The notes below the pieces were generated by a model that ran no database searches, was not told the DNA's origin, and worked only from the letters and a program-made list of their open reading frames with translations. 39,990 nt of DNA. It comes from Marivivens sp. GTDB lineage: Bacteria > Pseudomonadota > Alphaproteobacteria > Rhodobacterales > Rhodobacteraceae. This document shows positions 7,603 to 13,084 of this stretch, in pieces. The stretch spans positions 1 to 39,990 of the forward strand of contig JAURFB010000018.1 in NCBI GenBank assembly GCA_030827165.1, read 5' to 3'. A program made the position numbers and the translations under genes. The stretch's first letter is position 1. Each line of letters begins with the position of its first letter.

Positions 7603-7682
7603 TTGCTCTGCCGTTAATAGCCATAGGGTAACGCGCGATTCTGCAGCGCGGCGTAAACAGGACATGCCCGATGGAGACCCCG

Positions 7683-8972
7683 ATGGCCCTTGATCAGACA
7701 CCCTCCGCCGAAACGGCCACCGCGCCCAAGAAAGACCTCTACGAAGTGGGCGAGATCCCGCCTCTGGGGCATGTCCCCGACAAGATGTATGCTTGGGCGA
7801 TCCGCCGCGAGCGGCATGGCGAGCCGGAGCAGGCGTTTCAGGTCGAGGTCGTGGATTGCCCCAAGCCTGATAGCCACGAGGTCCTCGTCATGGTCATGGC
7901 GGCAGGCGTGAACTACAACGGCGTCTGGGCTGGCCTTGGCATTCCGATTTCGCCCTTCGACGTCCACGGTGCGCCCTATCACATCGCGGGCTCGGATGCC
8001 TCGGGGATCGTCTGGGCGGTGGGCGACAAGGTCAAACGCTGGAAGGTTGGCGACGAGGTGGTGATCCACTGCAATCAAGACGACGGCGATGACGAGGAAT
8101 GCAACGGCGGCGATCCGATGTTCTCGCCCAGCCAGCGGATCTGGGGTTATGAGACGCCGGACGGCTCTTTCGCTCAATTTACCTGCGTGCAATCCCAGCA
8201 ACTCATGCACCGGCCCAAGCACCTGACCTGGGAAGAAAGTGCCTGCTACACGCTGACGTTGGCGACCGCCTATCGGATGCTGTTCGGCCACAAGCCGCAC
8301 GAGCTGAAACCCGGCATGAACGTGCTGGTTTGGGGCGCCTCGGGGGGGCTTGGGTCTTATGCGATCCAGCTGATCAACACCGCCGGCGCCAATGCGATTG
8401 GCGTGATTTCCGAAGAGGACAAGCGCGAATTTGTCATGTCGCTTGGCGCCAAGGGTGTGATCAATCGCAAGGATTTCAACTGTTGGGGCCAGATGCCCAA
8501 GGTGAACACGCCCGAATACAAGGACTGGTTCAACGAGACCCGCAAATTCGGCAAGGCGATCTGGGAGATCACCGGCAAGGGCAACAACGTTGACATGGTG
8601 TTCGAGCATCCGGGCGAGGCTACGTTCCCGGTTTCCGTCTTTGTTGTGAAGCGCGGCGGGATGGTGGTGATCTGTGCCGGCACCACCGGCTATAACCTGA
8701 CCTTCGACGTGCGCTATTTGTGGATGCACCAAAAGCGCGTGCAAGGCAGCCATTTCGCCAACCTCAAGCAGGCCAGCCAAGCCAACCAGCTGATGATCGA
8801 ACGCCGGCTTGATCCTTGTATGTCTGAAGTTTTCGGCTGGGACGAGATCCCGCTTGCCCACACCAAGATGCGCCGCAACGAACACAAGCCGGGCAATATG
8901 GCGGTTCTCGTCCAGAGCCCGCAAACCGGCCTTCGGACCCTTGAAGACGTGATCGCCGAAAGCAAATCCTGA
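7683..8972 (+). CDS. ccr: Crotonyl-CoA carboxylase/reductase
   Basis: The enzyme reductively carboxylates crotonyl-CoA with NADPH and CO2 to (2S)-ethylmalonyl-CoA, the key step of the ethylmalonyl-CoA pathway. The 429 residues form a medium-chain dehydrogenase/reductase: a GroES-like N-terminal half with GVNYNG (75-80) and YHIAGSDASG, then the nucleotide-binding fold with GASGGLGS (218-225). The conserved FEHPGEATFP and QGSHFANLKQA segments near the active site are present. Overall it closely resembles Rhodobacter Ccr. An in-frame ATG at 7671 is also possible; 7683 is preferred because GGAG sits 6 bases before it and relatives begin MALD. Its product feeds the Ecm branch encoded at 4067-6034. 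A GC hairpin follows. Confidence 0.96.
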   Translation: MALDQTPSAETATAPKKDLYEVGEIPPLGHVPDKMYAWAIRRERHGEPEQAFQVEVVDCPKPDSHEVLVMVMAAGVNYNGVWAGLGIPISPFDVHGAPYHIAGSDASGIVWAVGDKVKRWKVGDEVVIHCNQDDGDDEECNGGDPMFSPSQRIWGYETPDGSFAQFTCVQSQQLMHRPKHLTWEESACYTLTLATAYRMLFGHKPHELKPGMNVLVWGASGGLGSYAIQLINTAGANAIGVISEEDKREFVMSLGAKGVINRKDFNCWGQMPKVNTPEYKDWFNETRKFGKAIWEITGKGNNVDMVFEHPGEATFPVSVFVVKRGGMVVICAGTTGYNLTFDVRYLWMHQKRVQGSHFANLKQASQANQLMIERRLDPCMSEVFGWDEIPLAHTKMRRNEHKPGNMAVLVQSPQTGLRTLEDVIAESKS

Positions 8973-8996
8973 CATTCTTGCCCGAGTGACGGTCAA

Positions 8997-9030
8997 GGGC
9001 GCGCGCCGGCAACGGCCGCGCCCATTTCCT
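8997..9030 (+). terminator. Probable terminator after ccr
   Basis: A 7-bp GGGCGCG/CGCGCCC stem (8997-9003 with 9017-9023), extended inside by three more pairs across a one-base bulge, is followed by ATTTCCTATT. It lies 24 bases after the ccr stop. The U tract is weak, so termination is likely but not certain. Confidence 0.5.
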
Positions 9031-9109
9031 ATTGCGCTGAGCTTCACCATTTCTGGGGGGGGCAAATAGGCGAGTAAATCGTTAACCGGGCCTGTGCTAC
9101 CATAGGTTG

Positions 9110-9125
9110 TTAACTTCTTATTAAC
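9110..9125 (+). promoter_or_regulatory. CtrA-type binding site before the lux genes
   Basis: TTAA, seven bases, TTAAC is an exact match to the CtrA full-site consensus. It sits 21 bases before the ATG at 9146. A further TTAACC half-site is at 9082-9087. In roseobacters such as Dinoroseobacter shibae, quorum sensing and the CtrA phosphorelay are linked, which makes a functional site plausible. Its closeness to the start codon would suit repression, or a short leader. Confidence 0.6.
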
Positions 9126-9145
9126 CATTCACGGGGAGGGTGATC

Positions 9146-9364
9146 ATGGAGAATACGTGGAACATCGACGTGATCGCCGACCTCAAGACCTTTGCGGATC
9201 AGAACGAATTGCCGCTTCTTTCGCGGCAATTGTCCGAAACTGCCAAGGTTGCCGTGGCCGAGATCACTTCGACTGTGGGAGAAATTCCCGCGCGTCCGCA
9301 AGGGGAGGACGGTTATGTTGGAGTTGGCGGCTGGACAGCTGGAGGCAGCGGTCAGCCTCAGTGA
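9146..9364 (+). CDS. Small protein overlapping the luxR start
   Basis: This 72-residue frame begins at an ATG with a strong GGGGAGGG site 5 bases upstream, better than that of most genes here. The first 45 residues read as an ordinary soluble helical protein (DVIADLKTFADQNELPLLSR). The last 25 residues are Gly-rich and overlap luxR by 50 bases in another frame. I do not recognise a family. It may be a real small regulator, or a leader whose translation opens the luxR ribosome binding site, which lies within it. Its position directly after the CtrA-type box suggests it is the first gene of the quorum-sensing transcript. Confidence 0.6.
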   Translation: MENTWNIDVIADLKTFADQNELPLLSRQLSETAKVAVAEITSTVGEIPARPQGEDGYVGVGGWTAGGSGQPQ

Positions 9365-10082
9365 TCTTCAGGACATTGTCGTCGGATTGCGCGACAGTCT
9401 TGAAATAGATCATATCGTCTATCACTGGGTCAGCGCGGATGGCGAGCAATATGGCTGCGGAACATACGATCCCGTCTGGGTTCAGCGCTATGTCGATCAG
9501 GATTACCTTCGGATAGATCCCGTTATCCTTGCCTGCTTTCAGCGCTATCACCCTGTCGACTGGCGGCGTCTTGACTGGTCGTCGCGCGTGGCCAGGGCCT
9601 TTCGCAAGGACGCGCTCGACCATGGGGTCGGAAATCAAGGCTATTCCGTGCCGATCCACGGGCCAAGCGGCCAGTTTGCGCTTCTCACCCTTTCGCACAC
9701 GGCAAGTGACGAAGACTGGGACGCAGTCGTTGGCGCGCATCAGCGGGAAATCATTCTGATCGCGCATTACCTTAACAGAAAAGCGCTCGAGATCGCCTCG
9801 AACCGCGCTCCGAAGCCCTCAAAGACATTATCGCCCCGCGAAGTCGATGCCTTGACCTATCTCGCCATGGGATACGCTCGGGGGCAGGTTGCCGAGATGC
9901 TGGCGATCTCGGAGCACACGCTCAGGGCCGATATCGAAAGTGCCCGGCTCAAGCTCAACGCCCAAAACACAATCAGCGCCGTCGCGCAGGCCTTGCTTCA
10001 CGGCCATATCGTGATCGGCGGGACAGATCGCGCCGCGCCGGGCGACTGGCCAGGCAAAGAGCGCGCGGCTTTGGCCAGCTAG
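9315..10082 (+). CDS. luxR: LuxR-family autoinducer-binding regulator
   Basis: This is a transcription factor expected to bind an acyl-homoserine lactone made by the neighbouring LuxI and then DNA. Of 255 residues, 15-160 form the autoinducer-binding domain with the usual conserved positions: W55, Y59, D68-P69, W83 and G109. Residues 170-230 form the LuxR-type helix-turn-helix, starting LSPRE. The recognition region (GYARGQVAEMLAISEHTLRA) departs from the common consensus, with a Gly-Tyr-Ala in place of the usual Gly-Lys/Met-Ser. The ATG at 9315 follows GGAGGA by 6 bases; a longer in-frame start gives an Arg/Pro-rich N-terminus unlike the family. It is followed 75 bases later by luxI in the same orientation. 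Confidence 0.93.
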   Translation: MLELAAGQLEAAVSLSDLQDIVVGLRDSLEIDHIVYHWVSADGEQYGCGTYDPVWVQRYVDQDYLRIDPVILACFQRYHPVDWRRLDWSSRVARAFRKDALDHGVGNQGYSVPIHGPSGQFALLTLSHTASDEDWDAVVGAHQREIILIAHYLNRKALEIASNRAPKPSKTLSPREVDALTYLAMGYARGQVAEMLAISEHTLRADIESARLKLNAQNTISAVAQALLHGHIVIGGTDRAAPGDWPGKERAALAS

Positions 10083-10157: not shown

Positions 10158-10787
10158 ATGCTGCGCTATCTTCAAGGCTTCGAACTGGGCCGATATCCCG
10201 CGCTTCAATCCTCGATGTTCCTCGATCGGGCCGCACAATTTCGGGATCGACTGGGCTGGGAGGTGAGTGTCGACAGCAACGGCTGGGAACGGGATCAGTA
10301 TGACGATCTCGATCCGCTCTATGTCGTCTGGCAGCTCCCGGACGGGACGCACGGCGGCTCGATGCGGTTTCTGCCGACCACGGGTCGCACGATGACCAAC
10401 GAACATTTCCTCGGCCTTCTCGGCGGCGAGCAGCTTCATGATACGATGACTTGGGAATGCACGCGCTTCTGCCTCAGCCCGCAAGCGAGCGGGCAGGTGG
10501 CGGCGGCCTTGATGCTGGGCGGGGGCGAGGTGATGCGGCACTTTGCGATCCGGCATTTTCTGGGTGTCTTTGACGCGCGAATGGTGCGGATCTATCGCCA
10601 GATCGGGGCGTCGCCCAAACTTCTCGGAACGGACAAATCCGGCCCTTCCCCGATCAGCGCTGGCCTGTGGACCTATGATCCGCTCGATCGGTTGCGCATC
10701 CTGCACCGGGTCGGGATTTCTTCGGCGATTTCGGAACGGTGGGTTGACCGCTCGCTTGGCACACTGCTTCTCCGGCTTTCCGCCTGA
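10158..10787 (+). CDS. luxI: Acyl-homoserine lactone synthase
   Basis: The enzyme makes an N-acyl-homoserine lactone from S-adenosylmethionine and an acyl carrier, the signal of LuxR quorum sensing. All hallmark residues are present in 209 residues: R24, F28 and W34, then E44-x-D46-x-x-D49, R70, E100 and R103. The acyl chain length cannot be read from sequence. The ATG at 10158 follows a run of G (AGGGGGG); a start 27 bases upstream is less likely. No convincing lux box was found between luxR and luxI. A helicase gene follows after 42 bases. Confidence 0.95.
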   Translation: MLRYLQGFELGRYPALQSSMFLDRAAQFRDRLGWEVSVDSNGWERDQYDDLDPLYVVWQLPDGTHGGSMRFLPTTGRTMTNEHFLGLLGGEQLHDTMTWECTRFCLSPQASGQVAAALMLGGGEVMRHFAIRHFLGVFDARMVRIYRQIGASPKLLGTDKSGPSPISAGLWTYDPLDRLRILHRVGISSAISERWVDRSLGTLLLRLSA

Positions 10788-10829: not shown

Positions 10830-12359
10830 ATGACCGCGCTTGCCCCGACCTTTTCTGCCGATCAGGCCGCCGCCTGGGATGAGATCGCCGAGGCGCTGCG
10901 CGGGGCGGGGATCAACCTTGACGACAGTCTTCTGATGCCGCCCGAGGCGGGTGATACCCGCGTTCTGGCGGTGATCGGCAAGGCGGGCTCGGGCAAGACG
11001 ATGCTCTTGTCGGAACTCACCAAGGCGCTGTCCGAGGCGGGCGTCGATCTGGTCTCGGGCGATTGGGAGGGCAAGCGGCGGAAAGACAGGCGCACGCTGG
11101 CGGTCCTTGCGCCCACCAACAAGGCGGCAAGCGTCTTGCGCAATCTCGGCGTGCCGGCGACGACGATCCACCGCATCCTCTATACCCCCGTCTATGATCC
11201 CGAATACGAGAGGATCGCCGAATGGCTCGCGGGGCAAGGCGAGAGGCCGCAGATCGAGGGGCTGACCGAGCTGGCGCTCGATCGCGCCTTTGGCTCCTAC
11301 CAGATCAACAAATCGGTCCCGGCGGCGCTTGCGGCGGCGGGGCTGCGCGGCTCGGATTTCATCATCGGCTGGAAACGGCGCGAGGATCCGCTCGACATCG
11401 GGTTTGTCGACGAAAGCTCGATGCTTGACGAACGTCAGTTTGAAGATTTGCAGGAGATCTTTCCGACCCTCGTCCTTTTCGGCGATCCCGCGCAGCTGCC
11501 GCCGGTCCAGAGCACAGGGGGCATGGTTTTCGACAGCTTGCCAGACGCGCGCAAGCTGGTCTTGCACCGCATCCACCGGCAAGAGGCCGACAACCCGATC
11601 CTCGATCTTGCGCACGCGCTGGCCGATCCGTCGCTGGATTTCCAAGGGTTCGAAGACATGATCAGCGAGGCTGCCCGCCGCGACGAGCGCGTGGTCTGGG
11701 CCGAGCGGGTCGGATCCGACCTGATGGCCCGATCGCCGGTTCTGGTCTGGCGCAACGCGACGCGCATCCGCTTGATCCATGCGTTCCGCGCGGCTTATGG
11801 CGTGCCCGCGGGAGAGCTGATCGTAGGCGAGCCACTGATCTGCGACGGGATCGAACTGCCGCTCAAGCACCGCAAGAAGCGCCTCGATCTCGAGGCGCGG
11901 GGGCTGATCAAGGGCGCGCAGGTGATCTATCTCGGGCCGGGCCGCCGCCCCGGCTTTTCGCGGCTGCACATCATCGGCGCGGAAGACCCGCAGGCCAACG
12001 CCGCCAGCATCATCAAGATCGAGATGGAGGGCGATGACGAGCCGTTCATCCCCTTCGCCGCGCGGATGGGCGCGACCTTTCTGCACGGCGCGGCGGTGAC
12101 GATCCACAAGGCGCAGGGCTCGCAGTGGGATACGGTTCAGGTCTTTGGTCCTGATATCTATGCCGCTGCGCGGATGGGTCGCGTCGAGGCGGGCCAGCCA
12201 CTTTGGAAACGGCTTGCCTATGTGGCGATCACGCGGGCAGAAACGCAGATCAGATGGGTCGTGCGCAACCGTCTTGGCAAACCGAGCGGGCCACTGAGGG
12301 TCGATGACCTGCCCGCCGCGCCGGCGAGCTTTGCGCTGGAACGAGAGGACACGGAATGA
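10830..12359 (+). CDS. SF1 (RecD/UvrD-like) ATP-dependent helicase
   Basis: This 509-residue superfamily 1 helicase presumably acts in DNA repair or recombination. The motifs appear in order: Walker A GKAGSGKT (50-57), motif Ia TNKAA (96-100), Walker B VDESSML (193-199), motif III GDPAQLPPV (218-226), motif V TIHKAQGSQWD and motif VI AYVAITRAE near the C-terminus. The arrangement is close to RecD2 and phage Dda enzymes but lacks the long RecD2 N-terminal domains. It shares the strand with luxI and overlaps the next gene by ATGA, so it is probably cotranscribed with the short-chain dehydrogenase. Nothing in the sequence links it functionally to quorum sensing. Confidence 0.88.
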   Translation: MTALAPTFSADQAAAWDEIAEALRGAGINLDDSLLMPPEAGDTRVLAVIGKAGSGKTMLLSELTKALSEAGVDLVSGDWEGKRRKDRRTLAVLAPTNKAASVLRNLGVPATTIHRILYTPVYDPEYERIAEWLAGQGERPQIEGLTELALDRAFGSYQINKSVPAALAAAGLRGSDFIIGWKRREDPLDIGFVDESSMLDERQFEDLQEIFPTLVLFGDPAQLPPVQSTGGMVFDSLPDARKLVLHRIHRQEADNPILDLAHALADPSLDFQGFEDMISEAARRDERVVWAERVGSDLMARSPVLVWRNATRIRLIHAFRAAYGVPAGELIVGEPLICDGIELPLKHRKKRLDLEARGLIKGAQVIYLGPGRRPGFSRLHIIGAEDPQANAASIIKIEMEGDDEPFIPFAARMGATFLHGAAVTIHKAQGSQWDTVQVFGPDIYAAARMGRVEAGQPLWKRLAYVAITRAETQIRWVVRNRLGKPSGPLRVDDLPAAPASFALEREDTE

Positions 12360-13084
12360 AGACGATCATTGTCACGGGCGCGAGCGCGGGGATCGGGCGG
12401 GCGGTGGCCGAGCGGTTTCTCGTGGATGGCTGGCAGGTGGGGCTGATCGCCCGCCGCGCCGAGATGCTTGAAACGGTGGCCGCAAGGCGTGGCAATGCCG
12501 TGATCCTGCCGTGCGATGTGGCCGATGCCGATCAGGTCGCGCGGGCCTTTGCCGATTTCACAGCCAAGGCGGGCCGGCTCGATGTGCTTTTCAACAACGC
12601 CGGTATATTCACGCCCGCCGCGCCCATCGACGAGGTGCCGGTCGAAGACTGGCTGCGCGCCGTGTCGGTCAATCTGACGGGGATGTTCCTTTGCGCCCGC
12701 GCCGCCTTTGGCCTGATGCGGCGGCAAACGCCGCAGGGCGGGCGGATCATCAACAACGGCTCGATCTCGGCCCATGCGCCGCGCGAGGGGGCGGTGACCT
12801 ATACGACGACCAAGCACGGCGTCACGGGCCTGACCCGCCAGCTTGCTCTTGACGGACGCCCTTTCGAAATAGCCTGCGGCCAGATCGACATCGGCAATGC
12901 CATGACCGATCTTCTGGAAGGTATCGTCGATCGGGCGCGCGCCGAAGGCAAACCCGTGCCGCCGCATATCGACGTGGGGCTGGTGGCCGAGGCCGTCGCG
13001 CAGATGGCGGCGCTGCCGCTTTCGGCCAACACGCTTTTCCAGACGCTTATGGCGACGCAGATGCCCTTTGTGGGACGCGGCTAG
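12356..13084 (+). CDS. Short-chain dehydrogenase/reductase
   Basis: This is a classical SDR of 242 residues with unknown substrate. The NAD(P)-binding motif TGASAGIG is at 7-14, the NNAG motif at 80-83, and the catalytic set is S136, Y149 and K153 (YTTTK). The start overlaps the helicase stop by four bases (ATGA), indicating translational coupling. The tail shares the palindrome CTAG (13081-13084) with the stop codon of the convergent TIGR02186 gene. The N-terminal basic residues after the first strand (ARR, 32-34) hint at NADPH preference. Confidence 0.92.
   Translation: MKTIIVTGASAGIGRAVAERFLVDGWQVGLIARRAEMLETVAARRGNAVILPCDVADADQVARAFADFTAKAGRLDVLFNNAGIFTPAAPIDEVPVEDWLRAVSVNLTGMFLCARAAFGLMRRQTPQGGRIINNGSISAHAPREGAVTYTTTKHGVTGLTRQLALDGRPFEIACGQIDIGNAMTDLLEGIVDRARAEGKPVPPHIDVGLVAEAVAQMAALPLSANTLFQTLMATQMPFVGRG

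Follow-up and report, generated by a model that had tools for sequence, protein, structure and literature searches.

In D. shibae, CtrA sites are located upstream of luxR2, and expression of luxR2I2 was reported to be strongly lost in ctrA, cckA and chpT mutants (Wang et al. 2014, PMC4046655). Moreover, when signal is added to D. shibae, the genes of the CtrA phosphorelay were described as responding first and the quorum-sensing genes after them (Koppenhoefer et al. 2019, PMC6473078). The gene orders topology B and B1 were named by Cude and Buchan, in whose survey B was the most prevalent topology among their roseobacters (2013, PMC3824088). By their Table A1, luxR2I2 (DSHI_2852/2851) and pgaRI1 of P. 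inhibens (PGA1_c03880/03890) are topology B1 operons, and the topology-B pair of KLH11 is ssbRI. A 2025 study reported that pgaIR1 homologs fall in D. shibae alone, pgaRI1 of P. inhibens being given there as unchanged in CtrA-phosphorelay mutants (PMC12363192). In KLH11, cckA has CtrA-like sites and was yet reported not to respond to extra CtrA (PMC3692519).

In Caulobacter, the effect of CtrA is described as depending on where it binds: a full site whose 5' end is close to -35, as at ctrA P2 (-39), activates, and one that covers the -10, as at ctrA P3 (-14), represses (PMC4287350). The same rule, i.e. activation from near -35 to -39 and repression from over the -10, is also drawn from PMC6180460 and PMC11264516.

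Here, we analysed a stretch of 39,990 nucleotides from Marivivens sp. (the window). Like D. shibae luxR2I2, for which CtrA-dependence is published (PMC4046655), and like P. inhibens pgaRI1, the window carries a topology B1 operon with orthologous luxR and luxI (PMC3824088, Table A1); as upstream of luxR2I2, a full CtrA site precedes it. A first-pass annotation of the window had proposed that this site provides a direct physical route by which CtrA could set signal production, and had stated that quorum sensing and CtrA interact in roseobacters. The interaction had already been published for D. shibae in 2014 (PMC4046655). The proposed route is supported by the sequence, i.e. by a position-locked site, a ctrA gene with a full site in the same genome and 0 full sites at 46 paralogs, together with the published data on the D. 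shibae ortholog. The link between CtrA and the topology-B operon is not new; what is new is the specificity, the wide sharing and the odd placement of the site. As judged from the sequence, the site is probably a genuine CtrA operator, an old and position-locked part of the topology-B promoter, through which CtrA would control the small ORF, luxR and luxI.

CtrA sites in the window and its genome

The full site, TTAA-N7-TTAAC (TTAACTTCTTATTAAC), is present letter for letter as first annotated, and so is the extra TTAACC 28 bases upstream of it (Table 1). The placement before the small ORF, luxR and luxI likewise held: the site lies 21 bp 5' of the 72-aa ORF, which overlaps luxR, and luxI follows. 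Because the element is nearly palindromic, the full-site pattern matched on both strands; nowhere else in the window did this pattern match (shuffle mean, 0.02). The order of ccr, luxR-luxI, helicase and short-chain dehydrogenase is that of topology B/B1. The nearest named loci to the window are in Rhodobacteraceae and Marivivens metagenome bins.

Table 1. Features of the quorum-sensing promoter and operon, in coordinates of the window.
Feature	Position	Strand	Basis or remark
ccr, crotonyl-CoA carboxylase/reductase	7671..8972	+	TIGR01751 above cut-off; upstream neighbour marking topology B
Imperfect palindrome CTTCACCATTTCTGGGGGG, candidate LuxR box	9042..9060	+	about 58 bases upstream of the full site; function predicted
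TTAACC half-site	9082..9087	+	28 bases upstream of the full site; mainly in the window's near relatives
Putative extended -10, TGC-TACCAT	9095..9103	+	predicted transcription start at about 9110
Full CtrA site TTAA-N7-TTAAC, near-palindrome	9110..9125	+ (- strand reading 9109-9124)	exact match and conservation
Shine-Dalgarno-like GGGGAGG	9133..9139	+	6 nt before the small ORF; from sequence
Small ORF, 72 aa	9146..9364	+	microprotein without named family, predicted two-helix hairpin
luxR	9315..10082	+	autoinducer-binding PF03472 and GerE PF00196; overlaps the small ORF by 50 nt
luxI, autoinducer synthase	10158..10787	+	PF00765
AAA/RecD-like helicase	10830..12359	+	downstream neighbour of topology B
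Short-chain dehydrogenase	12356..13084	+	as in topology B1

The assembly to which the window belongs, as contig C58, comprises 2.39 Mb in 129 contigs and is 82% complete. It contains the exact full pattern at six distinct places, or nine strand-hits, compared with five hits of the backwards pattern; since this is not far above the control, a single match is weak evidence by itself. All six places stand 5' of genes, with start codons chosen by hand: ctrA, a PAS protein that we take to be divL-like, a receiver-domain protein (its PF00072 score is below the cut-off), a PAS_5 protein, an MshEN-domain protein and the luxRI operon. The TTAACC half-site was rejected as stand-alone evidence, being about as common in the window as expected (6 occurrences, not beyond chance against 4.08 expected).

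Of 295 family genomes, 271 gave a CtrA match, with 14 first-look candidates scored in each. The genome of the window encodes ctrA in two pieces with overlapping residues, one at an end of contig C111 (L041) and one at an end of C129 (L042). The product is 83% identical to Caulobacter CtrA over residues 81-223, and the start codon of the gene is preceded, at a distance of 49 bp, by a full CtrA site. Similarly, among the ctrA loci of relatives (L273-L302, of which 29 of 30 were placed and L301, from D. shibae, was left out), all 29 promoters placed have a 7-of-8 CtrA match within 300 bp, which in 27 of them reads GTAA-N7-TTAAC. A TAGGTT-like -10 was often seen after the site in these ctrA promoters, by eye and uncounted.

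Conservation of the site at orthologous and paralogous luxR loci

Matches to luxR were obtained in 192 of the 295 genomes; all 150 places among the matches listed were read, as was one weaker place (L271). Altogether, 207 loci were read (30 + 57 + 120) and 12 repeats of identical luxR DNA were dropped, leaving 195 distinct orthologous loci. Among these listed matches, exact TTAA-N7-TTAA is present in 147 of the 195, at 189-216 bp 5' of a luxR start that was extrapolated from the window's own luxR. In the same upstream stretches, the backwards control AATT-N7-AATT was found once, TTAA pairs with a gap of 5, 6, 8 or 9 were found in 2, 7, 3 and 1 loci, respectively, and mononucleotide shuffles gave an expectation of 0.55. 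Seven of the eight letters are present in a further 17 loci, and not even seven of eight in 31. In the whole-genome set, which holds one genome per genus except for the window's own genus, the exact site was detected in 108 of 145 loci. Upstream of luxR, ccr is present in 140 of the 147 site-bearing loci (not found in five and not callable in two), ccr being the one neighbour tested in relatives. One of the loci with the full site and ccr upstream is that of KLH11 (L087).

The full site was not found in the 750 bp upstream of any of 46 paralogous autoinducer-binding genes, and a 7-of-8 match was found at three of them. These 46 genes, from 19 of 20 genomes, are part of 52 listed non-orthologous autoinducer-binding matches, of which the other six were left out; the topology-B orthologs in the 20 genomes carry the full site in 16. 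One of the three 7-of-8 matches is on the 86-kb plasmid of D. shibae, on which Wang et al. likewise reported a site (PMC4046655). In total, the full site is far beyond chance owing to its conservation at orthologous loci, and it is a position-locked part of the topology-B promoter rather than a scattered element. Thus, what had been observed in a single species, D. shibae, is common to most of the family loci read.

The site is nevertheless dispensable, since 31 of the 195 loci lack even seven of eight letters while CtrA is nearly universal, and 10 further loci (L271, L303, L316, L317 and L319-L324) have no full site. Conversely, two full-site loci are in genomes with no CtrA match at E <= 1e-30, L020 (G006, 100% complete) and L156 (G212, 62% complete); possibly CtrA was missed there among the 14 candidates scored per genome, or the site outlived CtrA. 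From the scattered occurrence of sites in 89 alphaproteobacterial genomes, Wang et al. concluded that CtrA control evolved several times, a view that applies to the Alphaproteobacteria as a whole (PMC4046655). For the topology-B operon, we infer from the shared position and context of the site, i.e. its common position, -10, palindrome and ORF, one origin followed by repeated loss. On a tree of 204 LuxR proteins (FastTree), the state of the site (seven of eight letters or better versus none) changed at least 18 times, a count that cannot tell gain from loss.

The D. shibae and Phaeobacter loci provide a natural comparison between a site-bearing and a site-less promoter. In genome G035, which we take to be D. 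shibae, ccr lies upstream of luxR2 (L212), and the promoter there shows the whole layout, with the full site at the same place. Whereas the published D. shibae promoter is described with two perfect sites (PMC4046655), L212 contains one near-palindromic element that matches both strands, and this element may be what Wang et al. counted as two. Unlike the luxR2I2 promoter of D. shibae, the window has the additional TTAACC at 9082.

Seven genomes (L306 and L319-L324) represent Phaeobacter, their genus having been read from a plasmid match to G075; they stand for the genus and not for P. inhibens by name. The P. inhibens plasmid stretch matched G075 at 94% over its length; listed plasmids matched the same stretch at 93.9-100% (P. 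inhibens), 92.6-93.1% (P. piscinae) and 92.0% (P. gallaeciensis). In all seven genomes, ccr is still upstream of luxR, but the full site, the palindrome core, TG[CT]TAnnGTTG and the small ORF are absent; bare TGnTAnnnT is present in three of the seven. The luxR promoter between ccr and luxR thus seems to have been replaced in Phaeobacter. Its lack of the site fits the CtrA-independence reported for pgaRI1, without isolating the site as the cause, because the whole promoter differs, including the three other elements just named. The genus of 'Phaeobacter sp. QD34_24' was rejected as the genus of P. inhibens, because the P. inhibens plasmid stretch matched it poorly; its four genomes have no full site and keep the small ORF.

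Promoter layout and the direction of CtrA control

In the site-aligned loci, the order of elements is a palindrome near -60, GCGAATATT near -35, an extended -10, the site, a short leader and the ORF. The extended -10 pattern TGnTAnnnT lies directly upstream of the site in 134 of the 147 loci compared with 8 of 1464 control segments, and in those 134 loci transcription is predicted to start at bases 0 to 3 of the site. The pattern is also kept in 14 of the 31 site-less loci (3 and 2 of 192 in control stretches) and is therefore independent of the site. A scan of 8900-9500 for the sigma70 consensus gave no hit (0.3 expected), the -10 being recognised by alignment only, and we found no mapped transcription start of D. 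shibae luxR2 in the literature. The TGCTATGGTTG block was considered as a third CtrA half-site and is disfavoured, since TG[CT]TAnnGTTG is kept in 12 of the 31 site-less loci (0 of 192 in each of two control stretches).

The palindrome, with the consensus CCTCnCYATTTYTGGGGAG, is conserved across loci. In eight genomes it gave three hits with at most one mismatch, all of them at this promoter, and 50 hits with up to three mismatches compared with 28 for the backwards pattern; as a regulon-wide LuxR box it is disfavoured by the close hits, but further sites may exist among the looser ones. For KLH11, a review describes the SsaR target as not being an inverted repeat (PMC3907830).

The distance between the 15-mer and the start codon of the small ORF is 21 bp in the window and 19-22 bp in 132 of the 147 orthologs, and in 132 of the 147 the ORF starts 34-37 bases after the first T of the site. 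The other five full sites in the genome of the window are 44, 46, 49, 62 and 76 bp from their start codons. Like the luxR operon, the ctrA genes of Rhodobacteraceae have a CtrA-type site upstream; by contrast, the nearest site (7-of-8) in the ctrA promoters is 46-59 bp from the start codon in 26 of 29 (32, 89 and 106 bp in the others), which is an activator layout. The layout of CtrA-activated promoters in Caulobacter, with the 5' end of the site at -35 to -39 and the -10 downstream, was not found at this promoter, where the conserved -10-like motif lies upstream of the site. Instead, the predicted start matches the CtrA-repressed layout, in which the box covers the -10 or the start; the expression of the D. 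shibae ortholog points the opposite way. The likeness extends to the boxes of Caulobacter ctrA P3/P1, where a CtrA box also lies over the promoter start region; there, CtrA is described as repressing one start and activating another (PMC4287350), whereas at the promoter in the window no second conserved -10 was seen after the site. Two observations speak against an activator layout with a leaderless start at or just after the ATG of the small ORF: downstream of the site the alignment shows no conserved -10, and the small ORF, itself under codon constraint, has a Shine-Dalgarno-like stretch in front of it.

In the mechanism that we propose, CtrA phosphorylated through CckA-ChpT would bind the near-palindrome at 9109-9125 and control transcription of the small ORF, luxR and luxI, and AHL production would thereby be tied to the CtrA phosphorelay. 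Judging from the expression data published for the D. shibae ortholog, the net effect would be positive. For Marivivens sp., we infer the binding, the start near 9110 and the sign. A site over the predicted start fits a positive direct effect poorly, and a concrete conflict is thus exposed between a repressor-like position and a published positive net effect; it may come from an indirect effect, from a dual input in which the upstream half-site takes part, or from a start that is predicted wrongly.

Provided that the start is predicted correctly, the layout is that of a repressor. CtrA may therefore bind the site and repress the operon directly, a possible but on balance doubtful reading: the site would cover about -2 to +15 and block RNA polymerase, resulting in negative feedback or a delay, and the fall in luxR2I2 expression reported for D. 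shibae without ctrA would be indirect. The extended -10 directly upstream of the site in 134 of 147 loci, its independence of the site, the short gap to the start codon compared with those at the other five own sites and at the ctrA promoters, and the Caulobacter position rule (PMC4287350) all argue for this. However, removal of CtrA, CckA or ChpT in D. shibae was reported to cause a strong loss of luxR2I2 transcripts (PMC4046655), and the phosphorelay genes were reported to rise first after signal, with the quorum-sensing genes following (PMC6473078).

A more elaborate arrangement, which we consider rather improbable, is a start-site switch in which CtrA has two opposite inputs: the full site would block, a lineage-specific half-site near -30 (TTAACC in the window) would help, the operon would fire only within a certain range of CtrA~P, the co-transcribed microprotein would tune LuxR, and the module would have a single origin near the base of the family, followed by repeated losses. 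Among the 147 site-bearing loci, GTTAA is present at -34..-20 of the site in 15 and [TC]TAAC at -38..-18 in 30, compared with 0-14 of 146-147 in 16 other 20-nt segments.

It is highly unlikely that a protein other than CtrA, i.e. a different regulator or the LuxR of the operon, binds the conserved sequence and that CtrA has no direct role. The sequence by itself does not reveal which protein binds, the two site-bearing genomes without a CtrA match (possibly missed) would agree with another protein, and the Dnr/Fnr site of D. shibae is described as having a TTAAC half-site in common with CtrA (PMC7232146). On the other hand, of the spacings compared only 4-7-4 is conserved; in the window's genome ctrA carries a full site of its own, and each of the 29 relatives placed has a 7-of-8 site no more than 300 bp from ctrA; and LuxR could use a separate palindrome. 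Finally, a chance match without function, to which the nine strand-hits against five backwards in the window's genome might point, is ruled out by conservation at one position in 147 of the 195 listed orthologs against 0.55 from shuffles.

The small ORF between promoter and luxR

The small ORF was identified in all 147 site-bearing loci using an early tryptophan as filter, with an ATG start in 139, and its start-like stretch is present in 17 of the 31 site-less loci. Its product is about 60-79 aa long and its consensus begins MxxDWILDVLADLKxFAxxNGL. An alignment of 71 sequences, i.e. that of the window and 70 drawn at random, had no match in NCBIfam and a single weak match in Pfam, to DUF7515 with an E-value of 0.006 in 1 of the 71 members. 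Similarly, a PDB search with the structure model returned no match at E <= 0.001. In a narrow literature search, we found no description of a small ORF beside luxR in Rhodobacteraceae quorum sensing; one may still have been published.

The ORF has a pN/pS of 0.42 (40 codons, 140 loci, 3000 random pairs), which indicates codon constraint, and its product is modelled as a two-helix hairpin with a disordered tail. We conclude that a well-studied quorum-sensing operon contains, between its promoter and luxR, a conserved microprotein without named family, whose reading frame overlaps the start of luxR with its 3' end.
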